The notes under the pieces: model-generated
The model's input: only the letters and a program-made list of their open reading frames with translations
The model's database searches: none
What the model was told of the DNA's origin: nothing
Program-made: the position numbers and the translations under genes
In this document: positions 32,098-60,781 of the stretch, one piece after another
Layout of the letters: each line of letters starts with the position of its first letter
Position numbering within the stretch: the stretch's first letter is position 1
From: Siphonodentalium dalli
Lineage: Eukaryota; Mollusca; Scaphopoda; Gadilida; Siphonodentaliidae
Length of the DNA: 64,000 nucleotides
Direction of reading: 5' to 3'
Assembly: GCA_032622095.1 (NCBI GenBank)
Contig: CP136065.1
Span: 100,137,343 to 100,201,342, forward strand

Positions 32098-33717
32098 TCA
32101 TGAAATCTCCATTGTCAATCCCATATTATCAGCACATGTTGACTCAAAGCGAACAGATTCATCCATATGTGTGCTATCCTCTTCGCCCACTGCTGTGAGA
32201 GGACAAGATGAATTCGAAACATTTTCAGAATAATCATTATCACTTTCACTACGATTTTTTAAGTTAGTATCTCTCTCTTTATGTGGAGGTACATGTAGGT
32301 TTTCCTCTTGATCATCCACTCCAGATCGAAAGATTCGAAACACATCAAACAAATTTCTTCCTGAATTCAAAACACTCTTATCATTCGTGTGACCTGTAAC
32401 ACTTGGTGTATCATTATCATCGTCATCATCTTTATAATCATCATCAAAACTCTGAGACACGTCATCTGAATTAATATCTTGGTCATTTGATATTGAATCA
32501 TCATCAGAATAATTTGGTGAATTCATTTCTTCAGGTACTGATTTCTGATGGGAATTGAATTCTTCTGCAGTGCAGCCGGTTGTTTCCAAATTTATATTTA
32601 TATCATTCCCATTTGTTTTTGTAAAATTTTGAGATGTAACAGTCGACACTTCACTCAAACAGGGCAAAGATGAAAGTTCGGAAACCATGGAACTGGCCTG
32701 TTTCTGTTTCTTGTTTGATTTAAGGTTTCTTATGCTATGCACACGTCGAGGTGGTGGATTCTTAAGTTCAATTCCATGAAGAGCTTTCATGTGAGATTTC
32801 AAAACTGGAAGAGTGGTGAACATCTTGTAACAGACAGAACAATGGGCAGTGCCCTTCTTATGAGACCGCATGTGCCTGTCATGCAATTTTTTATTGTGAA
32901 CCACGTAACCACAAATGCTGCATGTGAAAGTCCTGCCTTCTGGGTGCTGTAACAGATGTATATTGTGAACCCTTTTGGTTGGAGACTTCTTACCGCACAC
33001 CTCACATACAAATGGATATTGCCCGGTGTGCTCCCACATGTGCATACGAAGGCAACCAGCTGTTCTGAATTTTTTGTGACAAATTTCACATTCTTCTGGC
33101 CAGTTATCGGTATGTATCATCATGTTCCTCTTTAGACGAGATGACTGTGAGCATTTCTGGCCACACACTTTACATGGGAAGAGTCGAAGATCTTTGTGCG
33201 TCCTTTCATGAGTTCTCAAGTGTGTTGACTGGGTAAATGTTTTGAAACAAATATCACATTCATATGGTCTCTCACCCGTATGGGCACCTCTAATGTGTGT
33301 TTTCAGTTCTGACGATGATCTTGCTCTTTTATGACATACTTTACAAACATATTCCATTATCCCAGTGTGGACAACAGAATGTGACTTCAAACATGACAAA
33401 CTACCAAACATTTTATGACAATCAGGGCATTCATAGTTTCTGTCTCCGCTGTGAGTTACCATGTGAATTTTGAGCCCATTTTTACCACGGAAAGGTTTCA
33501 GACATATGCTGCATTTATAATGCATAGATCCAGAATGTAGTACCATATGACTCCTTAGAGATCCAGTGGTTTTGAATGGTTTCTTACAGATAGAACATTG
33601 GTGAGGTCTGTCGTCGGAATGTACAGTCAGGTGTGTCTGGTATTTATTGCGATTTGAGAACTCTTTCCCACAATCTTTGCAAATCCATACTTGCTTTCCT
33701 GTTTGAGAAGATTTCAT
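32098..33717 (-). CDS. C2H2 zinc-finger protein, 539 aa, single exon
   Basis: The start ATG at 33717 is preceded in frame by TAA two codons upstream, which fixes the start. The stop is at 32098. Residues about 13-320 hold eleven fingers, mostly C-x2-C-x12-H-x3-H, with TGERPY-like linkers in several places. Finger 7 has Asn where the first zinc His should be (RLKRNMMIH), so it may not fold. Fingers 5 and 11 have the longer H-x4-H spacing. The C-terminal 200 residues are low in complexity and acidic, with a run of Asp around KDDDDDNDT and many Ser. Proteins of this kind are nuclear DNA-binding regulators; target and partners cannot be read from sequence. The gene lacks introns and transposon marks. 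It could be a host gene, a retrocopy, or a lineage-expanded zinc-finger gene of the type that accompanies transposon control. Confidence 0.9.
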   Translation of the reverse strand: MKSSQTGKQVWICKDCGKEFSNRNKYQTHLTVHSDDRPHQCSICKKPFKTTGSLRSHMVLHSGSMHYKCSICLKPFRGKNGLKIHMVTHSGDRNYECPDCHKMFGSLSCLKSHSVVHTGIMEYVCKVCHKRARSSSELKTHIRGAHTGERPYECDICFKTFTQSTHLRTHERTHKDLRLFPCKVCGQKCSQSSRLKRNMMIHTDNWPEECEICHKKFRTAGCLRMHMWEHTGQYPFVCEVCGKKSPTKRVHNIHLLQHPEGRTFTCSICGYVVHNKKLHDRHMRSHKKGTAHCSVCYKMFTTLPVLKSHMKALHGIELKNPPPRRVHSIRNLKSNKKQKQASSMVSELSSLPCLSEVSTVTSQNFTKTNGNDININLETTGCTAEEFNSHQKSVPEEMNSPNYSDDDSISNDQDINSDDVSQSFDDDYKDDDDDNDTPSVTGHTNDKSVLNSGRNLFDVFRIFRSGVDDQEENLHVPPHKERDTNLKNRSESDNDYSENVSNSSCPLTAVGEEDSTHMDESVRFESTCADNMGLTMEIS

Positions 33718-40154: not shown

Positions 40155-40589
40155 TGCCTACATGACGTGACGTTAAGATGTAAACACGATCAGCGATTGC
40201 TCTCCTGAAAATAATGTATTTCTTCTGTTTAAAAGAGTGTTCGGAAACACAATTCTCACGATCTTCAGTTTACATACCCTAGAATGGATTGAGGATATTA
40301 TATTTCTAAACTTTGTTCCTATTTCGCAGATGGGTATGTGACTTTTGATACTAATGCTTGTGCATTGTGCATGAACCCCTAAGTGCCAAATCTCGCCCAA
40401 AATAGTGCTCGTTTGAACATATTCCCACAAATTTTAAATTGAACATCTCCGCCCAATATGGAGTGATGTGGATCCAATATTGTGCAGGAGCCAGTTCGGG
40501 TCAATCGAAAATTGACAACAGTGTCTCGAGGCTTGGTCATCACTCACCAATCGACGGATTATTGTATTGAAGAACTGGTGATCAGCATT
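40155..40589 (+). other. LINE 5' UTR
   Basis: Non-coding lead from the direct-repeat boundary to the first in-frame ATG of ORF1. The ORF1 frame stays open upstream of that ATG to about 40482. An internal promoter is expected for a LINE here, but no motif was identified. Confidence 0.5.
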
Positions 40590-42167
40590 ATGTCGGATAT
40601 GCAGAGCAGCGCGAGTCCTTATCAAACGTGCTCACCAAACGTGCAGTTAATTGACGGACAGCAGTTCACCATACTCCGCAATGCGACAGAACCGCTAGAC
40701 ACCCACTCTAGCATTAACTTCGATGACCCCACCCCTCAAAGGAGTGAAGTGGTGTCTGCCAGTGACTTAATGACAATGTCTCATCTCCCAAAAGATAAGT
40801 TTGTGAACGAGCTGCTACTCAGTACTGCCTCTAATGTGTCTTGGCTGAAAACCATACGGCGAAATGTATTTTCTGAAGCACAGGTTTCAAACCCTGAAGT
40901 AGCCAACAGTGACCTCAAACAACGTTATCAACGGTCGGGTGGAGTGCCCGTAGAAAATAAGCTCGCATGTGACATCTTCCACTTAATTTTCTACCTCAGC
41001 GGTGGATCACTGACTGAGATTAAAGATATATTGACATCATCACCGGATCTGCAACCAGAGTCCTCTCAAACGCCCCGACCAGTACCAAGCCTGTGTCCCT
41101 GTGGGTCAATCTGCGTGCAGGATAAAATCATAGAGATACATTCTTCTATTACTCTTGTTAAAGCAGACATTACCCGCCTTACAGCTTCTATCGAGAATCC
41201 AGATGGTATCTTCGGTTCGAGGCTGAAGTCAATCGAATCAGATGTGAAGGAGACACGCACAGAAATCGAGACGTTGAAGTATGAAATTGGTGTAATTGCT
41301 ACCCAATCAGATTCTAATAAAACAATGCTTGAAGAACTGAGAAAAGCCTGTCCCAGTAAAACCGATTCCGGAAAACAAAATTCGTCCATAAATATGTCTT
41401 TCCTGGATGAAATAGAGAAAGTTATTGGATCTGCGGAAGTTGTGTGCAGTGCAACACTAAGTAAACTAACTGATATTAGTTCTTCTGTTGCTGTTACCGA
41501 GGAAGCAAGTGCTAGGATTGACAAACTCAACAATTCTGCTAGAGTTGCAATCGAGAAAACTGACAGAAATGTCGACTCAATGGGGAGCTACTTTGAGCAG
41601 TTGTTCCAGACGCTCATTGATAACTATGAGCCTCGACTTTTCTCTCTAGAACAGCAACACAAGGACAAGCCTGTGGAGCGTCAGCAGAACTTCAGTTGTT
41701 CCCGAGCTTCTTACGCTGACACTGCAAGCGCGAGTAAGAATTCTAGAGAATATGATGCCAATTTCTCTGCAAATTCCATTCCTGTTTCAATGGAATATGA
41801 TACGTCTTACCAACTCGGCTCCCCGATTCATTCTAGCTCAGCCATTGCCGGTCGGAGTCATGACAATCATTTCCAGGATACAGAATATCCACCAGACACA
41901 AAGAGTCTTTATGTAGGTGGTGTTGGACCCTACGATAACCAGAATATGATCCGCAAATACCTTGTGAATCGTGGGATAACCCCATCTTATGTGAAAGTCA
42001 TGGCATCTAAAACAGTTCCGGATGGTAAATCAGCCAGAATCACTATACCAACGGAGTCATGTTCTCTTATTGCTTCTTCCAATTTCTGGCCTCCAGGTGT
42101 ATATAGTCGCCCGTGGAGAGGCTCAACTGCCAAACCAAAAGACTCGTTCTACATTCATCATGGATGA
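40590..42167 (+). CDS. LINE ORF1 protein, 525 aa
   Basis: ORF1 proteins bind LINE RNA and form the ribonucleoprotein used in retrotransposition. The first ATG in the frame is at 40590; the frame is open to 40482 without an ATG. Residues about 60-160 look globular and helical (FVNELLLSTASNVSWLK...). A Cys cluster (CPCGSICVQDK) follows, and then a long heptad-like stretch rich in Glu, Lys, Ile and Leu (ITRLTASIE...TRTEIETLKYEIG) that should form a coiled coil. A Ser-rich linker leads to the C-terminal module YVGGV...VMASKTVPDGKSARITI...FWPPGVYSRPWRG. FWP-x-GV-x-x-R-x-W endings are typical of ORF1 in several invertebrate LINE families. No CCHC knuckle is present. Its stop overlaps the ORF2 start. 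Confidence 0.85.
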   Translation: MSDMQSSASPYQTCSPNVQLIDGQQFTILRNATEPLDTHSSINFDDPTPQRSEVVSASDLMTMSHLPKDKFVNELLLSTASNVSWLKTIRRNVFSEAQVSNPEVANSDLKQRYQRSGGVPVENKLACDIFHLIFYLSGGSLTEIKDILTSSPDLQPESSQTPRPVPSLCPCGSICVQDKIIEIHSSITLVKADITRLTASIENPDGIFGSRLKSIESDVKETRTEIETLKYEIGVIATQSDSNKTMLEELRKACPSKTDSGKQNSSINMSFLDEIEKVIGSAEVVCSATLSKLTDISSSVAVTEEASARIDKLNNSARVAIEKTDRNVDSMGSYFEQLFQTLIDNYEPRLFSLEQQHKDKPVERQQNFSCSRASYADTASASKNSREYDANFSANSIPVSMEYDTSYQLGSPIHSSSAIAGRSHDNHFQDTEYPPDTKSLYVGGVGPYDNQNMIRKYLVNRGITPSYVKVMASKTVPDGKSARITIPTESCSLIASSNFWPPGVYSRPWRGSTAKPKDSFYIHHG

Positions 42168-43215
42168 ACAACATAACATAAATTGTGAAACAATTGTATA
42201 TACCCCTCTTAACTTAATTTCGTGGAATGCAACCGGTATCCAATCCAGCGCTTCATATCTTACTTCACTGTTAAATGATCAAGTATATGACGTGGTTGGA
42301 ATTTCTGAACATTGGCTAGATCCAAACACTTTGACATTTCTAGATACGATCCACCCAAATTACACAAGTATATCTAAGTGTGGCAGAGTCATTGTAACGA
42401 AAACGGGTGGCAGCTACTGTCGGGATGGAGTAGCGTTTCTCATAAATAAATCTAAGTCCCAGAATACCTCAACAGTCAGCGTGGATAATGAACGAATCAT
42501 TGGGATTCGACTTAGACTTGAATACAACCAGTTCTTATTTATCTTCCAAGTGTATTTTCCTGGTACTAATCACCCAGACGAATTATACGCACAATGTCTG
42601 TCAGATATGACCGATCTAATTAATGTATTCTCGTCTCATGGCTCAATCGTTCTAATGGGTGATTTTAATGCCCATCTCGATAAATCAAACGCTCCTCCCA
42701 CTAGCCTGGGCTCAAAGCGATCCTCCAGATCGGCTGGGCTTAAACATTTCTTAAGTCAACATCAGATGATATCTCTGATGGTGTTACCCACTTGCAAAGG
42801 CCCAACTGTGTCATACGTACCTTATTCAGATGATTCATCATCTTCTCTTCTAGATCACATTATCATACATGAATGTAGAGTAGATCTTATATCTAATAAC
42901 GAGATATTAGATGACAGTGCTACCAACACATCGAATCATCGACCAGTGAGATGCAACACTCTCATTCCCTCTCTTACGAACAATAACTCCAAAAGCGACA
43001 ATCGAAAAACAATAAATTGGCAAAAGCTTGATGTTGAATTATATAAAAGCTATGTATTAGATAGTATCGCAAATATACCAAGCGCACTCAGTAACAAGAG
43101 TGAAGTGGATGCAGCTTACACAAGCCTAGTTAGCGCTATGTTGTCTGCTGCTCAAATGGCAAGTCCCACACCTCACAGTCGACAAAATTCCAAACCATAT
43201 TGGGGCCGTGACATT
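42160..43215 (+). CDS. LINE ORF2, 5' part: apurinic/apyrimidinic endonuclease domain
   Basis: The ATG at 42160 lies inside ATGGATGA, which also holds the ORF1 stop (8-bp overlap), so ORF2 is probably reached by termination-reinitiation. Residues about 18-260 form the APE-type nuclease that nicks target DNA: NLISWN (Asn18/Asn23), SEHWL with Glu50, GDFNAH with Asp168/Asn170, a LDHIIIHE region, and SNHRPV at about 258-263. The usual S-D-H of the last motif is S-N-H here. The coding sequence is broken after codon 352 by the 9.56-kb insertion. Beyond 43215 the frame runs into inserted DNA and stops at 43443, so any protein from here would lack reverse transcriptase. Confidence 0.9.
43210..43215 (+). 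repeat. 6-bp target-site duplication, left (GACATT)
   Basis: GACATT immediately precedes the AGAAGAATAGCC terminus and is repeated right after the other terminus at 52780-52785. In ORF2 it encodes Asp-Ile. One copy is the original LINE sequence, since the frame continues exactly across a single copy. Confidence 0.95.
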
Positions 43216-43246
43216 AGAAGAATAGCCGGCTCGTTACCCCCACATC

Positions 43247-43440
43247 TAAAAATAGAATTTGTGGGTCTAAAATTGGTTGTACTAAAATATTCCCAAAATA
43301 TCAAAACCCAAAAAAAAAATTCAAAACTTCCAAAATTTATTTTTTCCAAAAAATTTCAAAAACCCAAAACTTCCAAAAAATTTCAAAACCCCAAAATTTC
43401 AAAAAAAGAAAAAATTTCAAAACCCTCAAAATTATTTCTC
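43247..43440 (+). repeat. A-rich TTTCAAAACTTCC subterminal tract, left
   Basis: After CATCTAAAAATAGAATTTGT and a conserved stretch containing GTTGTACTAAAATATTCCC, repeated words of the type TTCAAAA, CTTCC and CCCAAAA fill nearly 200 bp. The same head and repeat type recur at the centre (47690-47880). The mirror tract is 52555-52748. Confidence 0.85.
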
Positions 43441-44213
43441 TAAAAAAACAGTTTAAATAAAAAATTTATAACGAGTTTTCGGTTTCTGATAATCTCGATA
43501 TTAAAAAATGTCGAATGTTAAATTATTTGCGCGTAATATCTTTCGTTATTTTTTTTGTTCAAATATTTTTCATGAAATTATTAATCGATGTTTAGAAATA
43601 GCTTTATTGGACATTGTGACCATCGGTATGAATGCATACATTCCAGTGTTTATCGGACGCAGTTCATACATATATAATTGTCATACCTGAAAATAGACAC
43701 CATTACTCTTACATAAATAATAAAGAGCGTTTATTCTTTACACTCTCTATCCCAGATGAAGTTATTGAGTATATGACAGGTGTGTATTATCGTGAATTAT
43801 TGGAAGTATTGAGATGTACTATCTTGAATCACGAGCGGACAACCCCCAGAATGAACTGTCATATTCGATGGAACATATTATGTACACGTGATCACACACG
43901 ACATTGTGGGTAACAATGTGTCTTTCACACCTTGCTTTACCAAATGAATTCTATTATATTCCCGTTCACAATTATATGCCATTCAGAAAACATATCGATT
44001 TAATGTCTGAGCAGAATTAGTTGTTTAACGGGTTAGTATCAATTAAGGTTGATAAACTGTGTCATTGTTAGCATTAACACGATAATTAGTTATCCAAAAC
44101 ATGCATACATATTACGTCCAGGTCGTGAGACACTCAATTATAGAAATTGCTTCGGTGTCATTGTTATAACAACATTACGTAATAACCACTTATCACTCCA
44201 TTCACACTTACGC

Positions 44214-46440
44214 TTTGGACATTTTATCAGTTTATCACGTGATCACTAAATGTGGCAATCGGGTATCCACCGATGCCTGCAATATATTATTTATAATAAT
44301 TGGACTCATTGATCTCACGTGAATAATACTCTTAGTTGTTCCAATAAAATAGTTATCAAATTCGATCACCAATAGATTTGACTGTGGAATGTAATGACCT
44401 TTAACTTATTTATCGATCTAAAGGGACACTCATTATGAATGAATGTTAACAATACAAGCGCACGAATGAAGAGCGTTGAACATATACGAAATTACTACAC
44501 GAATGAATTGAACCTTGAAATTTATATTTCACATCTTACCAACAACAGCTACAGACATAATCATAGTATTATACTGTCTTGCATGTACACACGCTATGAC
44601 ATCATTAAAGGCGGACAATCCACTCACGGTGTGACAACAGATACGAACATAGGCATAGTGTTATACAGTCTTCTATGTACCCACGCTATGACACCATTAA
44701 CGTACAATGGATGTTAGGTCTATGACTCTTGAGTATGCACCAATCAATGAGCAAATGAGCAAAAAAATGAGCAAATGAGCAAAAAAATGAGCAAATGAGC
44801 AAGAAAATGAGCAAATGAGCAAGAAAATGAGCAAATGAGCAAGAAAATGAGCAAATGAGCAATAAAAATGAGCAAATGAGCAAAAAAATGAGTAAATGAG
44901 CAAGAAAATGAGCAAATGAGCAAGAAAATGAGCAAATGAGCAAGAAAATGAGCAAATGAGCAAATGAGCAAGAAAATGAGCAAAAAAATGAGCAAATGAG
45001 CAAAAAATGAGCAAATGAGCAAAAAAATGAGCAAATGAGCAAGAAAATGAGTAAATGAGCAAGAAAATGAGCAAATGAGCAATAAAAATGAGCAAATGAG
45101 CAAAAAAATGAGCAAATGAGCAAAAAAATGAGCAAATGAGCAATACAAATGAGCAAATGAGCAAAAAAATGAGCAAATGAACAAAAAATTTAGCAAATGA
45201 GCAAAAAAATGTAATTCTGCTGTGGTTAAGCAGTCCATTATTTAGGGCATACCTGTATGTAGGCCTATCAGTGGATGAATAGTCTGCCGGAGAAGTACTG
45301 TGTAGACAGGTCTTGTCGGTAAGAGAGTCAGACGAGAAGTGAAGACTCGGCTATTAAAACATAGTAATGCGATAGCGAACATCAAACGAGTCTGCGCACG
45401 CATATCTGTCAAAAGGATACAATAGCAGTCATTGGTCAATTTATCCCCGGTGTCAGCTCAGTACCCAATCGGGACGAAGCCGAAGGTCAACTCATTTTTT
45501 TTTGCTCATTATAGTACGTCACTTGGACATTTTATCAGTTTATCACGTGATCACTAAATGTGGCAATCGGGTATCCACCGATGCCTGCAATTTATTATTT
45601 ATAATAATTGGACTCATTGATCTCACGTAAATAATACTCTTAGTTGTTCCAATAAAATAGTTATCAAATTCGATCACCAATAGATTTGACTGTGGAATAT
45701 AATGACCTTTAACTTATTTATCGATCTATGTTAGAACATGGTCTTAACAAAAAACTTGACCATAACAAAAATTACCTTACATTTATGCATGAATCTAATT
45801 AGACCATACGTAAATATTGTCAGCTTATCGTCTGATGAGCAAATCCGATGTTTATCAAAAATAGTACAACTTCCAGTTGGTAATTACTCTTACGAATGAA
45901 GAGCGTTGAACATATACGAAATTACTACACGAATGAACTGAAATTTATATTTTCACATCTTACCAACAACAGATATAGACATAGTCATAGTGTTATACTA
46001 TCTTACATGTACCCATGCTATGACATCATTCGAAGGGGCAATACACTCAAGGAGTTAAAGTGACACGAAACAAGGGACGTGATGTAATATTGGTGTTTGA
46101 ATCTTAAAGGAACACAAGACACTCTAAAGGGACACTCATTATGAATGAATGTTAACAATACAAGCGCACGAATGAAGAGCGTTCAACATATACAAAATTA
46201 CTACACGAATGAATTGAACCTTGAAATTTATATTTCACATCTTACCAACAACAGCTACAGGCATTATCATAGGGTTATACTGTCTTGCATATACACACGC
46301 TATGACATCATTAAAGGCGGACAATCCACTCACGGTGTGACAACAGATACAGACATAGGCATAGTGTTATACAGTCTTCTATGTACCAATGCTATGACAT
46401 AATTAAAGGGGGATAATACACGCACGGTGTGGAATGTTAA
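44214..46440 (+). repeat. Direct duplication within the left arm
   Basis: GGACATTTTATCAGTTTATC and about 200 following bases (44217-44420) recur at 45528-45728. The next block, starting GGGACACTCATTATGAATGA (about 44421-44700), recurs at about 46126-46400. Between the two copies sits the minisatellite. A shorter third echo of GAAGAGCGTTGAACATATAC is at 45898. The mirror arrangement is in the right arm. Confidence 0.85.
44746..45210 (+). repeat. (ATGAGCAAATGAGCAAAAAA)n minisatellite, left arm
   Basis: Alternating ATGAGCAA and ATGAGCAA(A/G)AAA words of about 9 and 12 bp run for about 465 bp. All frames on the complementary strand stay open, giving false proteins of HFFAHLLIFLLICSF type. The right-arm array is about 85 bp longer. 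Confidence 0.95.
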
Positions 46441-46535
46441 AGTGACACGTGGTAAGGGACGTGATGTAATATTGGTGAAACCCCCTCCCCAACTTATAGA
46501 TATATAACGAAGACGAGAATAACATGTTGATGAAG

Positions 46536-46541
46536 TTTATT
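46536..46541 (-). promoter_or_regulatory. Poly(A) signal AATAAA of the left zinc-finger ORF
   Basis: On the minus strand AATAAA lies 6 bp after the stop codon at 46547, giving a very short 3' UTR. The right arm has the same arrangement at 49373-49378. Confidence 0.6.
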
Positions 46542-46546
46542 GAAAT

Positions 46547-47116
46547 TTAATCATTGTCTGAATCTTCGACCGTTAGATTTACTTCTAAGAGTTTCTTGAA
46601 TTTTCTCATCGCTTCATCTGCAGCCCATTCATTATTATATCCGTGTTTGGTCAGTTTGACCATTTTCTTCATGATCATGGTATGTATGCGTGATGTTTTC
46701 AATCGATACTGGTATTCTATTAATCGTCTATAACTTTTGAGAAACAGAGCAAACTCTGTGTCGATGGTATCCTCTTTTCCCGACATGCTCTCATCTCCCG
46801 AAATGCTCTCTTCTTCTTTCACATCATTGGTGACGCGTTTCATCATACTTTTGAATGTGTCCATCTCGTTGACACATCGCGCAGCTTTCTTAAGACCGAA
46901 TACCGTTCTACTACCGACGACATTACCATCTTCTGAATCTGATAGCGTTCCCCGTTCATCTTCATCTGAATCTAGAACCGCTTCGTCAGATTCATCGGTA
47001 TCTTCTCCGAAGAGAGTTGGTTTTGTCTCGGACATAACTCCGTGTTTAATCTGTTTATGTCTTTGTAGATTGTAGTTCGTCGATAAAATAATGCCACATA
47101 AATCACACCTGTGCAT
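46547..47116 (-). CDS. C2H2/acidic protein of the palindromic element, left copy, 189 aa
   Basis: An N-terminal finger C-x2-C-x12-H-x4-H (Cys4, Cys7, His20, His25) is followed by a strongly acidic stretch at about residues 38-68 (Asp/Glu/Ser, with EDTDESDEAV and SDEDERGTLS). The C-terminal half is charged and probably helical, with a Lys/Met-rich part (HTMIMKKMVKL). A single finger plus an acidic segment suggests nucleic-acid binding or transcription control of the element; this is an inference. I do not recognise a named family. The first four codons overlap the end of the 64-codon frame upstream. The other copy differs noticeably only at residue 3 (Arg here, Gly there), so both arms keep an open gene. 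Confidence 0.7.
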   Translation of the reverse strand: MHRCDLCGIILSTNYNLQRHKQIKHGVMSETKPTLFGEDTDESDEAVLDSDEDERGTLSDSEDGNVVGSRTVFGLKKAARCVNEMDTFKSMMKRVTNDVKEEESISGDESMSGKEDTIDTEFALFLKSYRRLIEYQYRLKTSRIHTMIMKKMVKLTKHGYNNEWAADEAMRKFKKLLEVNLTVEDSDND

Positions 47117-47297
47117 TATCGCGAATTATTGGAAGAACCATCACTCTTATACGTAGCGATAAAAAGAGAGAATAAGGTGTGGTATACAACCGTCGCGCTA
47201 AGAGTACGTTCGTCCCGGGGCTAGGGTATAGATATTTGACCGCCGGTGATTCAATTAATGCCAATTTATCAGTATGGTACTCTATGTATTCATTCAT
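47103..47297 (-). CDS. 64-aa overlapping frame, left copy
   Basis: The ATG at 47297 lies 7 bp past the stop of the polyQ/basic frame, and its stop overlaps the zinc-finger start by 14 bp. The product begins MNEYIEYHTDKLALIES and ends with a hydrophobic Leu/Ile/Val-rich stretch (YSLFLSLRIRVMVLPII). It could be a small membrane-associated protein, or only leader sequence between two genes. The frame is also open upstream to 47360 in a different phase from the polyQ gene. Both arms keep it open. Confidence 0.35.
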   Translation of the reverse strand: MNEYIEYHTDKLALIESPAVKYLYPSPGTNVLLARRLYTTPYSLFLSLRIRVMVLPIIRDNAQV

Positions 47298-47304
47298 GAT
47301 TTGG

Positions 47305-47679
47305 CTAATCGTATGACACTGGTCTTTCCATTTTCTTCTTATTATTAGACAAACCTCCAACAGACACTCTCTTGCTGGTTTGTTTGGACGCTTTACGTGT
47401 GTTTGTCAACTTATTTGCTGCAACTTCGGCCTTAGCCATTTCAATCGCTTGAGCGATGGGTGTCACCACGTTAATATGTGGTTTTAGAACGTCTTCTTCA
47501 CTATCACTAGTTTTAGTTCTGTCAATAAAGTATCGACCCTGATTATCTGGTATTAACTTCCCATCAACCATATCTCTGAAATGTTTTCTCCACATTTCAA
47601 GATCTGCTGGTTGTTGTTGTTGTTGTTGTTGTTGTTGTAGCGGAGGTAGCATCACCAAATTAACCTCGGGGGACCTCAT
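47305..47679 (-). CDS. PolyQ/basic protein, left copy, 124 aa
   Basis: The first ATG is at 47679; the frame runs open further into the central repeat, but without an ATG. The N-terminus (MRSPEVNLVMLPPL) is encoded by the CAGAATGAGGTCCCC module shared with the double hairpin at 31736-32009. Then come 9 Gln (CAA repeat), a short conserved-looking core (DLEMWRKHFRDMVDGKLIP), an acidic TSDSEED stretch and a basic C-terminus (KASKQTSKR, NNKKKME). It may bind nucleic acid through the basic tail (inference). I do not recognise the family. The other arm has 17 Gln. Confidence 0.55.
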   Translation of the reverse strand: MRSPEVNLVMLPPLQQQQQQQQQPADLEMWRKHFRDMVDGKLIPDNQGRYFIDRTKTSDSEEDVLKPHINVVTPIAQAIEMAKAEVAANKLTNTRKASKQTSKRVSVGGLSNNKKKMERPVSYD

Positions 47680-47687
47680 TCTGTCAT

Positions 47688-48209
47688 CTAAAAATAGAAT
47701 CTGTGGGTCTAAAATTGGTTGTACTAAAATATTCCCAAAAACCCAAAACTTCAAAAATTTCAAAAAACTTCAAAAATTTCAAAAAACTTCAAAAATTTCA
47801 AAAACTTCAAAAATTTCAAAAATTTCAAAAACTTCAAAAATTTCAAAAAACTTCCAAAATTTCAAAAACTTCAAAAATAAGACCCCGGCGGCATTGCGGT
47901 ATTTTACTGCGGGGATCCGCCGGCGGCGGACCCCGGCGGCGGCGGCGGCGGCGACACCGCCGCCGCAGTAAAATACCGCAATGCCGCCGCCGCCGCCGCC
48001 GCCGGGGTCTTATTTTTGAAGTTTTTGAAATTTTTGAAGTTTTTTGAAATTTTTGAAGTTTTTGAAATTTTTGAAATTTTTGAAGTTTTTGAAATTTTTG
48101 AAGTTTTTTGAAATTTTTGAAGTTTTTTGAAATTTTTGAAGTTTTGGGTTTTTGGGAATATTTTAGTACAACCAATTTTAGACCCAAAGATTCTATTTTT
48201 AGATGACAG
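47688..48209. repeat. Nested central inverted repeat reusing the subterminal sequence
   Basis: The left half starts CATCTAAAAATAGAATCTGT and continues through GTTGTACTAAAATATTCCC into TTTCAAAAACTTC repeats. The right half is its mirror. The same head is found in the same orientation just inside the left terminus (43246 on) and mirrored inside the right terminus. The centre therefore looks like a short foldback copy of the element's own ends. The frames across it consist of KFQK-like repeats and are not genes. Confidence 0.9.
47881..48009. repeat. GC-rich central dyad
   Basis: GACCCCGGCGGCATTGCGGT, then ATTTTACTGCGG, is mirrored on the right as CCGCAGTAAAAT and ACCGCAATGCCGCC...GGGGTC. Between lie GGATCCGCCGGCGG and a (GGC)n run, and a (GCC)n run also lies in the right half. 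Local GC content is very high against AT-rich flanks. The left/right difference in the triplet runs gives the only real asymmetry at the centre. Confidence 0.9.
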
Positions 48210-48210
48210 A

Positions 48211-48251
48211 ATGAGGTCCCCCGAGGGTAATTTGGTGATGCTACCTCCGCT

Positions 48252-48303
<52 letters not shown>

Positions 48304-48609
48304 CCAGCAGATCTTGAAATGTGGAGAAAACATTTCAGAGATATGGTTGATGGGAAGTTAATACCAGATAATCAGGGTCGATACTTTATTGACAGAACTA
48401 AAACTAGTGATAGTGAAGAAGACGTTCTAAAACCACATATTAACGTGGTGACACCCATCGCTCAAGCGATTGAAATGGCTAAGGCCGAAGTTGCAGCAAA
48501 TAAGTTGACAAACACACGTAAAGCGTCCAAACAAACCAGCAAGAGAGTGTCTGTTGGAGGTTTGTCTAATAATAAGAAGAAAATGGAAAGACCAGTGTTA
48601 TACGATTAG
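48211..48609 (+). CDS. PolyQ/basic protein, right copy, 132 aa
   Basis: The start is the first ATG in frame (48211), inside GAATGAGGTCCCC. The run at 48253-48303 encodes 17 Gln against 9 in the other arm. Outside that run the noticed differences are a Val/Gly change near residue 6 and a Ser/Leu change near the C-terminus (VSYD against VLYD). The DLEMWRKHFRDMVDGK core and the basic tail are unchanged. Retention of the frame in both arms despite repeat expansion by whole codons suggests it is or recently was translated. Function unknown. Confidence 0.55.
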
Positions 48610-48616
48610 CCAAATC

Positions 48617-48811
48617 ATGAATGAATACATAGAGTACCATACTGATAAATTGGCATTAATTGAATCACCGGCGGTCAAATATCTATACCCTAGCCCCGGG
48701 ACGAACGTACTCTTAGCGCGACGGTTGTATACCACACCTTATTCTCTCTTTTTATCGCTACTTATAAGAGTGATGGTTCTTCCAATAATTCGCGATAATG
48801 CACGGGTGTGA
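48617..48811 (+). CDS. 64-aa overlapping frame, right copy
   Basis: It lies 7 bp downstream of the polyQ stop and overlaps the zinc-finger start (48798) by 14 bp. TTATAAGAG at about 48762, just upstream of the zinc-finger ATG, could be a TATA-like element for that gene, in which case this frame may be only leader. Noticed differences from the left copy are minor (Leu for Arg in the hydrophobic part, Arg for Gln near the end). Confidence 0.35.
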   Translation: MNEYIEYHTDKLALIESPAVKYLYPSPGTNVLLARRLYTTPYSLFLSLLIRVMVLPIIRDNARV

Positions 48812-49367
48812 TTTATGTGGCATTATTTTATCGACGAACTACAATCTACAAAGACATAAACAGATTAAACACGGAGTTATGTCCGAGACAAAACCAACTC
48901 TCTTCGGAGAAGATACCGATGAATCTGACGAAGCGGTTCTAGATTCAGATGAAGATGAACGGGGAACGCTATCAGATTCAGAAGATGGTAATGTCGTCGG
49001 TAGTAGAACGGTATTCGGTCTTAAGAAAGCTGCGCGATGTGTCAACGAGATGGACACATTCAAAAGTATGATGAAACGCGTCACCAATGATGTGAAAGAA
49101 GAAGAGAGCATTTCGGGAGATGAGAGCATGTCGGGAAAAGAGGATACCATCGACACAGAGTTTGCTCTGTTTCTCAAAAGTTATAGACGATTAATAGAAT
49201 ACCAGTATCGATTGAAAACATCACGCATACATACCATGATCATGAAGAAAATGGTCAAACTGACCAAACACGGATATAATAATGAATGGGCTGCAGATGA
49301 AGCGATGAGAAAATTCAAGAAACTCTTAGAAGTAAATCTAACGGTCGAAGATTCAGACAATGATTAA
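48798..49367 (+). CDS. C2H2/acidic protein of the palindromic element, right copy, 189 aa
   Basis: The ATG at 48798 starts MHGCDLCG, so the zinc ligands Cys4, Cys7, His20 and His25 are intact. The acidic middle and the charged C-terminal half match the left copy residue for residue apart from residue 3. The stop is at 49367. With the polyQ and 64-codon frames it forms a tightly packed, same-strand cassette reading from the centre outward, more like a viral or virus-derived element than a host gene. No relative of the eleven-finger protein at 32098-33717 beyond the finger fold itself. Confidence 0.7.
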   Translation: MHGCDLCGIILSTNYNLQRHKQIKHGVMSETKPTLFGEDTDESDEAVLDSDEDERGTLSDSEDGNVVGSRTVFGLKKAARCVNEMDTFKSMMKRVTNDVKEEESISGDESMSGKEDTIDTEFALFLKSYRRLIEYQYRLKTSRIHTMIMKKMVKLTKHGYNNEWAADEAMRKFKKLLEVNLTVEDSDND

Positions 49368-49372
49368 ATTTC

Positions 49373-49378
49373 AATAAA
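49373..49378 (+). promoter_or_regulatory. Poly(A) signal AATAAA of the right zinc-finger ORF
   Basis: AATAAA begins 6 bp past the stop codon at 49367. Confidence 0.6.
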
Positions 49379-49499
49379 CTTCATCAACATGTTATTCTCG
49401 TCTTCGTTATATATCTATAAGTTGGGGAGGGGGTTTCACCAATATTACATCACGTCCCTTACCACGTGTCACTTTAACATTCCACACCGTGCGTGTATT

Positions 49500-51780
49500 A
49501 TCCCCCTTTAATTTGTCATAGCATTGGTACATAGAAGACTGTATAACACTATGCCTATGTCTGTATCTGTTGTCACACCGTGAGTGGATTGTCCGCCTTT
49601 AATGATGTCATAGCGTGTGTATATGCAAGACAGTATAACCCTATGATAATGCCTGTAGCTGTTGTTGGTAAGATGTGAAATATAAATTTCAAGGTTCAAT
49701 TCATTCATGTAGTAATTTTGTATATGTTCAACGCTCTTCATTCGTGCGCTTGTATTGTTAACATTCATTCATAATGAGTGTCCCTTTAGAGTGTCTTGTG
49801 TTCCTTTAAGATTCAAACACCAATATTACATCACGTCCCTTGTTTCGTGTCACTTTAACTCCTTGAGTGTATTGCCCCTTCGAATGATGTCATAGCATGG
49901 GTACATGTAAGATAGTATAACACTATGACTATGTCTATATCTGTTGGTAAGATGTGAAAATATAAATTTCAGTTCATTCGTGTAGTAATTTCGTATATGT
50001 TCAACGCTCTTCATTCGTAAGAGTAATTACCAACTGGAAGTTGTACTATTTTTGATAAACATCGGATTTGCTCATCAGACGATAAGCTGACAATATTTAC
50101 GTATTGTCTAATTAGATTCATGCATAAATGTAAGGTAATTTTTGTTATGGTCAAGTTTTTTGTTAAGACCATGTTCTAACATAGATCGATAAATAAGTTA
50201 AAGGTCATTATATTCCACAGTCAAATCTATTGGTGATCGAATTTGATAACTATTTTATTGGAACAACTAAGAGTATTATTTACGTGAGATCAATGAGTCC
50301 AATTATTATAAATAATAAATTGCAGGCATCGGTGGATACCCGATTGCCACATTTAGTGATCACGTGATAAACTGATAAAATGTCCAAGTGACGTACTATA
50401 ATGAGCAAAAAAAAATGAGTTGACCTTCGGCTTCGTCCCGATTGGGTACAGAGCTGACACCGGGGATAAATTGACCAATGACTGCTATTGTATCCTTTTG
50501 ACAGATATGCGTGCGCAGACTCGTTTGATGTTCGCTATCGCATTACTATGTTTTAATAGCCGAGCCTTCACTTCTCGTCTGACTCTCTTACCGACAAGAC
50601 CTGTCTACACAGTACTTCTCCGGCAGACTATTCATCCACTGATAGGCCTACATACAGGTATGCCCTAAATAATGGACTGCTTAACCACAGCAGAATTACA
50701 TTTTTTTGCTCATTTGCTCATTTTTTTGCTCATTTGCTCATTTTTATTGCTCATTTGCTCATTTTTTTGCTCATTTGCTCATTTTTTTGCTCATTTGCTC
50801 ATTTTTATTGCTCATTTGCTCATTTTTTTGCTCATTTGCTCATTTTTATTGCTCATTTGCTCATTTTTTTTTGCTCATTTGCTCATTTTTTTGCTCATTT
50901 GCTCATTTTTATTGCTCATTTGCTCATTTTCTTGCTCATTTACTCATTTTCTTGCTCATTTGCTCATTTTTTTGCTCATTTGCCCATTTTTTTGCTCATT
51001 TGCTCATTTTTTTGCTCATTTTCTTGCTCATTTGCTCACTTGCTCATTTTCTTGCTCATTTGCTCATTTTCTTGCTCATTTGCTCATTTTCTTGCTCATT
51101 TGCTCATTTTTTTGCCCATTTGCTCATTTTTATTGCTAATTTGCTCATTTTCTTGCTCATTTGCTCATTTTCTTGCTCATTTGCTCATTTTCTTGCTCAT
51201 TTGCTCATTTGTTTGCTCATTTGCTCATTTTTTTGCTCATTTGCTCATTGATTGGTGCATACTCAAGAGTCATAGACCTAACATCCAATGTACGTTAATG
51301 GTGTCATAGCGTGGGTACATAGAAGACTGTATAACACTATGCCTATGTCCGTATCTGTTGTCACACCGTGAGTGGATTGTCCGCCTTTAATGATGTCATA
51401 GCGTGTGTACATGCAAGACAGTATAATACTATGATTATGTCTGTAGCTGTTGTTGGTAAGATGTGAAATATAAATTTCAAGGTTCAATTCATTCGTGTAG
51501 TAATTTCGTATATGTTCAACGCTCTTCATTCGTGCGCTTGTATTGTTAACATTCATTCTTAATGAGTGTCCCTTTAGATCGATAAATAAGTTAAAGGTCA
51601 TTACATTCCACAGTCAAATCTATTGGTGATCGAATTTGATAACTATTTTATTGGAACAACTAAGAGTATTATTCACGAGAGATCAATGAGTCCAATTATT
51701 ATAAATAATATATTGCAGGCATCGGTGGATACCCGATTGCCACATTTAGTGATCACGTGATAAACTGATAAAATGTCCAA
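49500..51780 (-). repeat. Direct duplication within the right arm
   Basis: The mirror image of 44214-46440: blocks at about 49520-49795 and 50190-50390 recur at about 51295-51580 and 51580-51780, with the minisatellite between. Confidence 0.8.
50701..51249 (-). repeat. GAGCAAAT minisatellite, right arm
   Basis: The same array as 44746-45210 in reverse orientation (TTTGCTCATTTGCTCA words), about 549 bp. Three overlapping plus-strand frames of 155-191 codons come purely from the repeat. Confidence 0.95.
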
Positions 51781-52554
51781 AGCGTAAGTGTGAATGGAGT
51801 GATAAGTGGTTATTACGTAATGTTGTTATAACAATGACACCGAAGCAATTTCTATAATTGAGTGTCTCACGACCTGGACGTAATATGTATGCATGTTTTG
51901 GATAACTAATTATCGTGTTAATGCTAACAATGACACAGTTTATCAACCTTAATTGATACTAACCCGTTAAACAACTAATTCTGCTCAGACATTAAATCGA
52001 TATGTTTTCTGAATGGCATATAATTGTGAACGGGAATATAATAGAATTCATTTGGTAAAGCAAGGTGTGAAAGACACATTGTTACCCACAATGTCGTGTG
52101 TGATCACGTGTACATAATATGTTCCATCGAATATGACAGTTCATTCTGGGGGTTGTCCGCTCGTGATTCAAGATAGTACATCTCAATACTTCCAATAATT
52201 CACGATAATACACACCTGTCATATACTCAATAACTTCATCTGGGATAGAGAGTGTAAAGAATAAACGCTCTTTATTATTTATGTAAGAGTAATGGTGTCT
52301 ATTTTCAGGTATGACAATTATATATGTATGAACTGCGTCCGATAAACACTGGAATGTATGCATTCATACCGATGGTCACAATGTCCAATAAAGCTATTTC
52401 TAAACATCGATTAATAATTTCATGAAAAATATTTGAACAAAAAAAATAACGAAAGATATTACGCGCAAATAATTTAACATTCGACATTTTTTAATATCGA
52501 GATTATCAGAAACCGAAAACTCGTTATAAATTTTTTATTTAAACTGTTTTTTTA

Positions 52555-52748
52555 GAGAAATAATTTTGAGGGTTTTGAAATTTTTTCTTTTTTTGAAATT
52601 TTGGGGTTTTGAAATTTTTTGGAAGTTTTGGGTTTTTGAAATGTTTTGGAAAAAATAAATTTTGGAAGTTTTGAATTTTTTTTTGGGGTTTTGATATTTT
52701 GGGAATATTTTAGTACAACCAATTTTAGACCCACAAATTCTATTTTTA
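52555..52748 (-). repeat. A-rich subterminal tract, right
   Basis: The mirror of 43247-43440, with T-rich words on the plus strand (GGAAGTTTTG, TTTGAAATTTT). Confidence 0.85.
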
Positions 52749-52779
52749 GATGTGGGGGTAACGAGCCGGCTATTCTTCT

Positions 52780-52785
52780 GACATT
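52780..52785 (+). repeat. 6-bp target-site duplication, right (GACATT)
   Basis: It directly follows the right terminus (...GGCTATTCTTCT). The LINE reading frame resumes right after it with CAA. Confidence 0.95.
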
Positions 52786-55227
52786 CAACACTTACATAAA
52801 GCTATGATAACACATAGGAAAATGTGGATTACTTCAGGGCGGCCCACAGATTTTAACAACGTAATTTATCGGGCCTATAGAGACCAAAAACGTTTCTTCC
52901 GAAGAGCCCATCGCTTAGCTGTAAAATCATATTTCAAGGACTCTATTTATAAAATAGAACGTCAAGCAGTTTCCGATCACAAAGGCTTCTGGAAATCCGT
53001 CCGTCCTAAAACTGGAAGCAGTGTGCGCCCAGGAACGGAAATGCTATTTAATGGCATTATGTATCGAGATCCTCTGGACATTGCTTTAGGATGGCAAAAC
53101 TATTTTGCAGAACTTTATAAATCTTCAACCCATAAAGATAAGGAGTTTGAGTTATTTGTCAAATCGAAAATAGAAGAATTTCTCGATTCCGATCAATTAA
53201 ATGAAGGAACTAATGATCTCACAGGGTCTGTCTCACTGGTCGAGATTAATAAAGCAATTGGAAATCTAAAACTAAACAAAGCAGGGGGAATTGACAACTT
53301 GTCGAATGAACACATTATAAATGCACCATTGAATGTTCGCACTGCTTTATGTTTGTTATTTTCAACCATGTTTAAGCTTGCTCACATCCCATCTGATATG
53401 AAGAAAGGTCTTGTTTTGCCAATATACAAAGGAGATCCGAAACCTATTCAAAACCCAGACAGCTACCGGGCAATCACGCTCCTTCCTGTATTATATAAGA
53501 TTTATGAGAATATAATTCTTCAAAGACTTAAGGAGAGCCATAATTTCAAACATTTTCCGAGTAGCCTACAAAATGGATTCCAGAAAGGAGTTGGTTGCTC
53601 GGTAACTGCCTTCGAACTTCAAGAAGGCATAGCCTATGCCAAATCGAATGGGTCTCGCTTATTCACAGCTTTTCTTGATTCGAAAAAAGCATTTGACTGT
53701 GTATGGCACGAGGGCCTAATTTACAAATTGCATGAGATGGGAATAAATGGTAACTTGTTCCAATTATTTATTGACATGTACTCAAATGTGGAGAGCTATA
53801 TATTGTACGAAGGAATTATAACACATTCAATCAAAATGGAGCAAGGTACCAGACAAGGAGGTGTTTTATCTCCCTTCCTGTACCTTATTTTTATTGATGA
53901 CCTTGTTAAGTCATTGTCTGACTCACCTCATGGTTTGCATATCAGCACGCTGACATGCTCGTGTCCGACCACTGCAGACGATATCACGATAACATCACTG
54001 ACAGAGCACGGTCTGCGAAAACTCATTGACATATGCTACAACTACAGTTTAAAGTGGAGGTTCCAATTTTCTCACGAAAAAAGTAAGATCGTTATCTTCA
54101 ACACCTCTCGCAAACCAGCAGCGCTCACAACAGATAAATCATTTGTAATGGGACCCTGTGCAATATCTGAATCCGATCAGGTAGCGCATCTGGGCATACT
54201 CCAGGATTCTAGAAGTTCCCATATCCCGAACATTGATCACGCTTCTCAAATGCTACGCAAATGCTTCTTTGCCGCTTGTCGCGCCCCGGTTTCGAAAGAT
54301 TTCACTCCTCTGACAAACCTTAAACTGTTTAGTCAGGTAGCTATTCCTAAAGCTCTGTATGGTTGCGAGATGTGGTGGAGCCTTTCATCTACGAATTACC
54401 TTAGCTTAGAACGAGCATATCGCATGTGCATTAAAAACATGCAACTTATCTCTCAGAGAAGTAGTACAATTCTTTCTCTCTCCTTGCTTGGTGTCTTGCC
54501 AATTCAGTATGAACTAGAGAGGAGAAAACTCTTGTTTCTGGGGTCGCTCATCAACTTGCCATACGGTCATAGACAAGCCTTAGAAATATTTTTGTTCAAT
54601 CTCCATGCGATGTTGTTATATGCCCGTCCACCCACGGGTTTTCTTGCGGAGATTACAAACGTTCTTAAAGAATATGACCTATATGATCACCTCTTACACT
54701 TTGCAACTACAGGGTCTTTTCCGACTATATTAATGTGGAAAATTACTATAAAGGAACGCCTCACTGCTGACTATTGTCGTGAAACTAGTTATTATGCACA
54801 AGGGGATATGCTATTCTTCTTTAAGGTCAAGCCTGATCCAATTTCCATTTGGAAACTCTGGGTTACATGTCGAGACGAACCAGCCTTTTTCGCCAACTGT
54901 GTTATCATGGCACGCACTCTGAACAGAACGACATATGATAATGCTTCTGTATGTTATCATTGCAAACTAAATTATTCGAATCAATTGTTTCATATGTATA
55001 GTAAATGCTCGTCTGAATTCGCTTTGATAACGCGGAACACATTCTGGTACTCCATAATTGATCGATTTGGAATACATGCGTTCAACTTCTTGGAAGCAAT
55101 GTCAGAAGAAACACTCTTAGCCTATTTCTTCGGTGGATGCATCAGCGCAGAAATTCACCTCATCTGCGACGAGAAGCAGCTATTCGGACAATGCGTCCGC
55201 TTCATTTGCGAATTATGCGCGGTCTGA
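52786..55227 (+). CDS. LINE ORF2, 3' part: reverse transcriptase and C-terminal region, 813 codons
   Basis: The reading frame resumes at 52786 in the phase required by the 5' part at 42160-43215; an in-frame ATG is at 52804. The RT spans about residues 150-470 of this part: PIYKGDPKPI...SYRAITLLP, motif A FLDSKKAFDCVWH with the catalytic Asp near 298, GTRQGGVLSPFLYL (motif B), and TADDITI with Asp398-Asp399 (motif C; Thr replaces the usual Tyr/Phe). The thumb and a long C-terminal region follow. At about residue 723 lies C-x2-C-x9-H-x4-C (CYHC...H...C), a knuckle that may bind nucleic acid. The stop is at 55227. The part alone lacks the endonuclease, so the copy should be unable to move, though the enzyme residues are intact. 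Confidence 0.9.
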   Translation, partial: QHLHKAMITHRKMWITSGRPTDFNNVIYRAYRDQKRFFRRAHRLAVKSYFKDSIYKIERQAVSDHKGFWKSVRPKTGSSVRPGTEMLFNGIMYRDPLDIALGWQNYFAELYKSSTHKDKEFELFVKSKIEEFLDSDQLNEGTNDLTGSVSLVEINKAIGNLKLNKAGGIDNLSNEHIINAPLNVRTALCLLFSTMFKLAHIPSDMKKGLVLPIYKGDPKPIQNPDSYRAITLLPVLYKIYENIILQRLKESHNFKHFPSSLQNGFQKGVGCSVTAFELQEGIAYAKSNGSRLFTAFLDSKKAFDCVWHEGLIYKLHEMGINGNLFQLFIDMYSNVESYILYEGIITHSIKMEQGTRQGGVLSPFLYLIFIDDLVKSLSDSPHGLHISTLTCSCPTTADDITITSLTEHGLRKLIDICYNYSLKWRFQFSHEKSKIVIFNTSRKPAALTTDKSFVMGPCAISESDQVAHLGILQDSRSSHIPNIDHASQMLRKCFFAACRAPVSKDFTPLTNLKLFSQVAIPKALYGCEMWWSLSSTNYLSLERAYRMCIKNMQLISQRSSTILSLSLLGVLPIQYELERRKLLFLGSLINLPYGHRQALEIFLFNLHAMLLYARPPTGFLAEITNVLKEYDLYDHLLHFATTGSFPTILMWKITIKERLTADYCRETSYYAQGDMLFFFKVKPDPISIWKLWVTCRDEPAFFANCVIMARTLNRTTYDNASVCYHCKLNYSNQLFHMYSKCSSEFALITRNTFWYSIIDRFGIHAFNFLEAMSEETLLAYFFGGCISAEIHLICDEKQLFGQCVRFICELCAV

Positions 55228-59700: not shown

Positions 59701-60781
59701 GCTTGCTATGTTTATATAAAAAAAATAACAATAAATATGAAGGCTTGAGATTATATAACTCATGCTTATTTTTGGATTTTGTTCTGTAAAACATGTTAAA
59801 CGGACATGGCTCATTCGAGCGTCCAAATGTGTTCTACGTAATTTGGAAGGAGGTTGAAGATATGTTGACGAAATATTGATATACGGCTTCATATGCCCTG
59901 AAAATACTTTCCATGGTCACAGCCATTTTCCATCTGTTTTCAATTTATCGCTCAGAAGTGAAACAAACGCTCTTTATGTCTACCATATCAGGGATATACT
60001 AACACGGAACGCTCTTTTCTGTCAGCTAGATGCCGTGCACATGGATGTTGTTTGTTTTGCAATGGGACCCAAACACCCTGTTCATAGTTGTATTTGTCAT
60101 GTCTTCAATGGGTTGTTCTGGGACATACTGCGAGTACAAAGGTAGTTCCAAGTATTTAACGACCTATTTCGATACCGGGTAAAATTCAAAAGCGAATATG
60201 GCTTTAACTAATCCTATTTATTTTATTTAAGAAACCATTCGGAATGTGTGCTCTTCCTCCAACTCCCGCTAAAGAGAAGAGGAACGGTCATCAATAACTT
60301 AAGATCTCCAACCAAAGTCAGAGATCCAAGTCCGCTTCGCGCCCAGCAGAGCACGCTACGACTCGTCATCGTGGTTTACGATCCAGTCAGTATTACCTGA
60401 CGTATCGTCGATGCATACTATAGAAATGATCTTAACAGAAACATCGGCGAAGAGGCGATCAGTATTGAATAGAATAGAATAGTTTATTAACCAAAAATAA
60501 TGGACCATTGAGGTATACATGCAAAGCATTTGATGTGACATTGCATGAGGATAAACAATTTACAAAACAAACAAACAACATGTAACCAATTCAGCAGTAA
60601 CACACATACTTATTACTACTAAACATTTTACGTCATTGGTGCAGTGGTATGCTACATCAGCTAAACTGATATTGAATATATATACCAGTGGATGCATATA
60701 TATATACCGGTGGATGCATATCCCCTACTGACTATATATAGCTGTTAAGTTAGTACTATGTGGTGTCTACCTAACACAACT
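59701..60781. other. No supported gene
   Basis: Short frames only. An imperfect repeat of ATATATACCAGTGGATGCAT lies at about 60677-60720. No gene seen. Confidence 0.35.

Follow-up and report, generated by a model that had tools for sequence, protein, structure and literature searches.

The window analyzed here is a stretch of 64,000 bp (positions 100137343-100201342 of contig CP136065.1) in the 2.23-Gb assembly GCA_032622095.1 of Siphonodentalium dalli. At 43216-52779 it carries a 9,564-bp palindrome, hereafter EL, inserted in a long interspersed nuclear element (LINE). Inverted self-matches span all 9,564 bases of EL. Its arms are 99.42% identical (27 mismatches in 4,673 aligned columns), with indels that fall mostly in a 20-bp tandem array and a run of glutamine codons, and they carry an identical set of open reading frames (ORFs) around a center of 105 bp. 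An initial annotation, made from the letters of the window alone, had described a near-total inverted repeat with arms of about 4.7 kb, the same ORFs on each and exact GACATT flanks; coordinates and arrangement were both confirmed. The GACATT target-site duplication (TSD) is exact at 6 bp, with none longer. A 9.5-kb inverted repeat, 99% identical and set within an exact TSD, cannot have arisen by chance, and the same architecture is seen again elsewhere in the assembly with different TSDs.

The termini of EL are 5′-AG and CT-3′ (AGAAGAATAG...CTATTCTTCT), and Polinton elements typically begin and end in this way. At the axis, folding of 47860-48036 gives a long stem from which two side hairpins branch, at -90.5 kcal/mol, against -41.3 ± 3.3 kcal/mol for 200 shuffles (z -14.8). 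Joining the flanks of EL restores a single open LINE frame of 1,211 codons (endonuclease-reverse transcriptase ORF), which upholds the earlier placement of the insertion inside a LINE. Because this second frame is open without EL, the insertion may have struck a still intact LINE. Coordinates are collected in Table 1.

Table 1. Features of EL and of the LINE that it interrupts, in window coordinates (TIR, terminal inverted repeat).
Feature	Position	Strand	Remark
Host LINE, endonuclease part of interrupted ORF	42022..43215	+	PF03372 match
TSD GACATT, left	43210..43215		
Left arm of palindrome	43216..47892	+	
997-bp TIR, left end	43216..44212	+	starts AGAAGAATAGCC; common to canonical Polintons
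20-bp tandem array, left arm	44746..45211		23 copies
189-aa ORF, left arm	46547..47116	-	
64-aa ORF, left arm	47103..47297	-	
Poly-Q ORF, left arm	47305..47679	-	
T′ module	47685..47876	+	~80% like TIR bases 28-216, same orientation; 9-bp A-rich repeats
Hairpin core	47879..48011		23-mer GGCATTGCGGTATTTTACTGCGG (up to 4 substitutions) at 47890 (+) and 47963 (-)
Unmatched GC-rich spacer	47893..47997		105 bp; hairpin tip with two side arms
Right arm, reverse complement of left	47998..52779	-	
T′ module, right-arm copy	48011..48205	-	
Poly-Q ORF	48211..48609	+	66% aa identity to canonical ORF L018:2050-1745
64-aa ORF	48617..48811	+	first 20 codons match start of Polinton 420-aa ORF, 85%
189-aa ORF, C2H2-like zinc finger	48798..49367	+	C-terminal part of ATPase-zinc-finger ORF of L028/L024
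20-bp tandem array, right arm	50699..51249		27 copies
997-bp TIR, right end	51783..52779	-	
TSD GACATT, right	52780..52785		
Host LINE, reverse-transcriptase part of interrupted ORF	52786..55227	+	PF00078 match

The LINE spans 40482-55227 (+), and its first ORF has 561 aa. Elsewhere in the window lie a U3 small nucleolar RNA match at 60234-60447 (-), scoring 105.7 bits over the full model length, and a 539-aa open frame at 32098-33717 (-), in which many C2H2-like zinc fingers can be seen by eye and which probably belongs to a host gene.

Polinton-type ends and arm genes

The TIR of EL matches those of L017, L018 and L023 over 997 bp at 93.8-95.4% identity (L-numbers denote other stretches fetched from the same assembly). 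L017/L018 represent a canonical Polinton with ends 16.7 kb apart. It encodes PolB (PF03175, 1e-51) and a PC4-like protein, which scores 42.5 bits against a cut-off of 25. Its integrase is split over two frames, with a chromodomain above the curated cut-off and an rve match below it. An AAA-type ATPase also falls short of the cut-offs, as does an adenovirus-endoprotease-like protein at 20.0 bits (cut-off 21.3). The gene set of Polintons is described in passages of PMC6431247 and PMC4028283, and a passage of PMC10045372 gives their TSD as 6 bp. L023, L024 and L028 were read over 10 kb each; in L023 these are the first 10 kb, which contain PolB, the protease, a PC4-like ORF and a portion of a 420-aa ORF. 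This last ORF had no match in a PDB search, so a capsid-protein label would have its position as the sole basis. In a search with the 420-aa region, the best 40 of 234 candidates were scored and all are 99-100% identical, so the canonical Polinton copies look young. The TIRs of L014, a palindrome, group with those of L017/L018 (Shimodaira–Hasegawa-like approximate likelihood ratio test, SH-aLRT, 97), a grouping that suggests an exchange of ends between helper (canonical) and satellite (palindromic) elements.

All three arm ORFs of EL match parts of Polinton-type genes, and for this reason the EL arm, judged by its sequence, is a deleted Polinton-type end carrying fragments of such genes. The canonical counterpart of the poly-Q ORF, L018:2050-1745, lies directly upstream of the 420-aa ORF, and the ATPase-zinc-finger ORF that contains the counterpart of the 189-aa ORF (L028:2449-3951) scores 25.9 bits against Pox_A32 (cut-off 22.8). 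Searched against Pfam and PHROGs, the arm ORFs gave weak matches only; the zinc-finger match of the left-arm 189-aa ORF reaches 20.4 bits, under the curated 25.2. Among 59 candidates, none was a homologue of the 189-aa ORF at E 0.001, and viral contigs gave no relative of this ORF or of the 132-aa poly-Q ORF. The ratio dN/dS is 0.48 for the poly-Q ORF against L018 and 1.8 for the zinc-finger ORF against L028 or L024, the latter being uninformative with 8 changes only. PolB, RVE integrase, protease and a whole ATPase ORF were not found in the EL palindrome. We rate EL as a non-autonomous Polinton/Maverick by descent and a probable snapback genome by form.

The ATPase of the arm type is only ~30% identical to the canonical one. 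Its DNA has at least 41 matches in the assembly (best 40 of 1,017 candidates), 26 of which form 13 head-to-head pairs by eye. Upstream sequence was fetched for ten of the 15 unpaired matches, and eight of these have a second, inverted copy within 3 kb while two do not; three further unpaired matches sit in L024, L028 and L029. An open ATPase frame of ~500 codons is found in L024, L028, L058 and L063, in one arm of each, and other arms have the frame broken; therefore we claim no function for it.

Palindromic relatives and their hairpin core

A 485-bp end query gave at least 42 matches in the assembly, which is a lower bound since the best 40 of 2,331 candidates were scored. The 20 stretches taken from the best-scoring matches, a non-random sample, represent 17 other insertions. 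Further palindromes sharing the ends of EL, which the initial annotation had proposed looking for, are frequent among them: eight of the 17 are near-complete palindromes and six more are incomplete, with inverted arms extending past the TIR, next to two canonical elements and one ambiguous case. Inverted self-matches cover 98-100% of L009, L011/L012, L013, L014, L015, L016, L021 and L022. Coverage is 72% in L010, 59% in L025 (where the center and much of one arm are gone), 39% of 10 kb in L024 (with ~4 kb inserted in one arm), and 35% and 66% in the pieces L019/L020, which have kilobases unlike EL between the arms. L026 and L027 are masked inside; the unmasked part is wholly covered in the former and 65% covered in the latter. 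The coverage of canonical L017/L018, 12% and 16%, corresponds to the TIR alone, and L028 shows one arm, then other DNA within 10 kb. No monomeric arm was met among the copies examined, no dedicated arm search having been made. Both ends were seen in 15 insertions, EL included. Compared by eye, 14 of them have an exact 6-bp TSD, the duplication of L017/L018 being one base out of register; the terminal 26 bp agree between the two ends in 15 of 15, in several variants among copies. L011 has an extra partial inverted arm amid two full arms (L011:4696-6404), as from a second fold-back.

Palindromes whose arms differ in type have the same GC-rich core at their axis. Its 23-mer has 446 exact matches in the assembly, and the reversed control 0. 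On contig C1, 54 matches to the 23-mer correspond to 40 places more than 3 kb apart (hand count). We examined 28 core sites, 8 picked by hand and 20 further C1 places in coordinate order, two places being skipped because each lay <10 kb from a site already taken. Inverted flanks reach at least 80% in 20 of them, which are symmetric (L029-L034, L037-L040, L042-L050 and L056); L041 and L052 are partial (0.43 and 0.59 inverted-flank coverage), L035, L051, L053, L054 and L055 are asymmetric or mixed, and L036 is a rearranged cluster with flanks too short to judge symmetry. At L036:1-3101, five hairpin cores stand with short arm pieces in mixed orientation. An arm of the L009 type is joined at the core to one of the L014 type in L035, and the core-proximal part is missing from one arm in L053 and L054 and from the other arm in L051. 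Both flanks match family reference copies at 27 of the 28 sites; one of the matches is just 151-232 bp long in L038, L043, L044, L047 and L056, and therefore arm types exist beyond those described here. The core was not found within 3 substitutions in canonical L017, L018 and L023, nor in L011, L013, L015, L019, L020 and L025-L028. L011 has a shortened core, L013 an A/T stem only, L015 a rearranged core and L020 one core side. Some arm types have the T′ module, which is degenerate and TIR-like, beside the core; others are without it. On the evidence of these sequences, EL belongs to a large family of defective, self-complementary Polinton offshoots, which apparently jumps as whole palindromes around a common hairpin.

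Equality of the arms and competing explanations

We hypothesize, with a probability of about three in four (0.76), that EL is a non-autonomous Polinton/Maverick derivative of the snapback (copy-back) kind, in which one end of a deleted genome was mirrored around the GC-rich core. According to the initial annotation, copying through a hairpin gave an inverted dimer that retained the ability to integrate. This proposal is largely upheld as the best reading, with support from the recurrent palindromes, the axial hairpin core and, with the limits given below, the equality of arms within copies. Polinton descent, the several arm types and the asymmetric or mixed-arm forms lay beyond its view.

Passages of PMC6431247 and PMC11071308 describe Polintons as encoding a protein-primed polymerase and an integrase. 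A canonical Polinton would supply this polymerase in trans. The displaced palindromic strand would then pair with itself over its full length, with the core as tip; alternatively, copying would run through the hairpin of a linear form that is closed at this end and protein-capped at the other. Mismatches between the arms would be removed by copying or repair in the self-paired state. The copied-out inverted dimer would carry two proper Polinton ends, and the Polinton integrase would insert it with a 6-bp TSD. Asymmetric forms could result from shortening of one arm beside the core and mixed-arm forms from recombination at the core. We infer the polymerase, the hairpin-ended form (the monomer) and the dependence on a helper.

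The arms were probably equalized before or at insertion and mutated independently afterwards, because shared variants stand on both arms and, in the EL arm type, private variants stand more often on one. Among ten insertions of this type, compared without bases 998-1999 (tandem array) and the center, variants that at least two copies share occupy both arms in 48/50 inner copy-cells (25/27 by hand if one 10-bp cluster is removed), whereas 65 of the 86 private ones occur on a single arm. The corresponding figures for the TIR segments are 50/63 and 21/45. Mean differences in the inner arm are 0.4-1.2% in most segments and 2.5% in two. Among six two-armed copies of a second arm type, shared variants are on both arms in 14 of 14 cases; the arms differ by 0-4 in 1,039-1,288 bases, and copies by 0-1.5% (mean 0.8%). 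Of the TIR tips, 29 passed an 85% length filter, and 12 insertions had both. The two ends differ by 0-1.3% within these insertions, against 0.8-5.1% (median 3.1%) between insertions, and 24/24 tips are nearest to the other end of their own insertion. The ATPase frame of L030 stops at codon 88 on both arms. Outside the tandem array, the differences between the arms of EL are evenly spread (Kolmogorov–Smirnov, KS, p 0.88; 16 of 17 used, the one in the A-rich repeat being left out).

Several observations weigh against the snapback reading. The equality of TIRs is also found in canonical L017/L018 and so is not specific to palindromes. Outside the TIR, the differences among copies of one arm type are so small that an inner arm is strictly nearest its own partner in 0-6 of 15-16 tips per segment, and in 8/17 beside the center. 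Among shared TIR copy-cells, 13/63 are on one arm, and of the private variants of the second arm type only 8/18 are one-armed. The two inner exceptions are one site, unequal between arms in EL and L021, so equalization may not happen every cycle; and 8 of the 20 shared inner sites fall within one 10-bp stretch at a segment edge, which may reflect one event or an alignment effect. In L010, L024 and L029, the ATPase frame does not end alike on both arms; mutation after insertion would account for this, but it is not equality. Among the 14 insertions of palindrome type, six are partial, damaged or masked, some such insertions are without an intact core, and the canonical parent of the ATPase-zinc-finger arm was not met among the matches listed. 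Moreover, assemblies cannot display linear or hairpin-ended DNA.

A bolder version of the hypothesis, to which we give well under even odds, is that the family is a hereditary satellite replicon: linear DNA with a protein-capped Polinton end and a closed, Y-shaped hairpin end, the core being a conserved cis-acting element that is copied through into integrating inverted dimers. Some arm types would carry a packaging-ATPase-like gene, two per element, and satellites may outnumber the helper. The first-look candidates number 1,017 for the satellite and 234 for the helper, counts that are mostly unscored and include two per palindrome.

The best-surviving rival, still an unlikely one, is that a single founder palindrome spread as an ordinary element with long TIRs and that chromosomal gene conversion after insertion keeps the arms alike, as in sex-chromosome palindromes. 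Long identical inverted repeats are known substrates of gene conversion, private variants on both arms (21/86 inner cells in the EL type, 10/18 in the second type) could reflect it, and with one core common to several arm types few founding events would suffice. However, most private inner variants of the EL type are one-armed, as given above, the even spread of differences in EL is expected if equalizing ends at insertion, and the ~4-kb insertion of L024 remains in one arm only. We therefore regard chromosomal gene conversion as the less likely cause of arm equality. It is very improbable that an inverted duplication, whether chromosomal or produced by the assembler, created the palindrome at each site: false palindromes can arise from assemblers and library methods, but here the flanks outside the TSD are non-palindromic and the LINE frame is restored, the arms of EL differ by 27 substitutions and several indels, and the same axis and termini are seen at separate places whose TSDs differ. 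Least credible is a DNA transposon of foldback type (FB/MULE), or another with long TIRs, that has no relation to Polintons. The 20-bp tandem repeats within long inverted arms resemble FB elements, but the TSD has 6 bp and not the 9-10 bp of FB/MULE, a TIR of ~94-95% identity is common to PolB-bearing Polintons, and the arms hold fragments of Polinton-type genes.

Comparison with known systems

Copy-back defective genomes are known from viruses; as an inherited transposon family they were not found, as far as the open-licence literature goes, and its PMC titles and abstracts yielded no palindromic, snapback or non-autonomous Polintons. If the snapback hypothesis is true, such genomes, by-products of viral replication, can turn into an inherited, high-copy transposon family. 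The palindromes would also provide sequence evidence on the extrachromosomal copying of Polintons, which to our knowledge has mostly been inferred so far. Since this genome has both palindromes and canonical copies that look young, it offers a direct way to test helper dependence, the hairpin ends and a possible hairpin-RNA silencing of the helper.

EL resembles Polinton/Maverick elements in its 997-bp TIR and 6-bp TSD, as in canonical L017/L018, and differs from them as an inverted dimer around a hairpin core in which PolB, integrase, protease and a whole ATPase ORF were not found. The foldback elements FB and Galileo resemble EL in that tandem repeats lie inside very long inverted repeats; unlike EL, they belong to other superfamilies, with another TSD length and no Polinton genes. 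Protein-primed linear DNA is known to yield deletion derivatives that are hairpin-ended or palindromic: the yeast linear killer plasmid pGKL1 has hairpin and palindrome derivatives (F1/F2), and adenovirus has genomes with inverted end duplications. The former are forms of a cytoplasmic plasmid and the latter variants in virus stocks, and unlike the EL family neither is known as a transposing family in a genome. In adeno-associated virus (AAV), snapback genomes (SBG) are described in passages of PMC8235507 as self-complementary, with one genome end duplicated, in symmetric and asymmetric forms that replicate with functions supplied in trans. The family reported here is likewise near-fully self-complementary with one end mirrored, and asymmetric forms occur (L051, L053 and L054). 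AAV snapbacks are subgenomes in virus particles, whereas the EL family is integrated, inherited and high-copy, and shares a common core.

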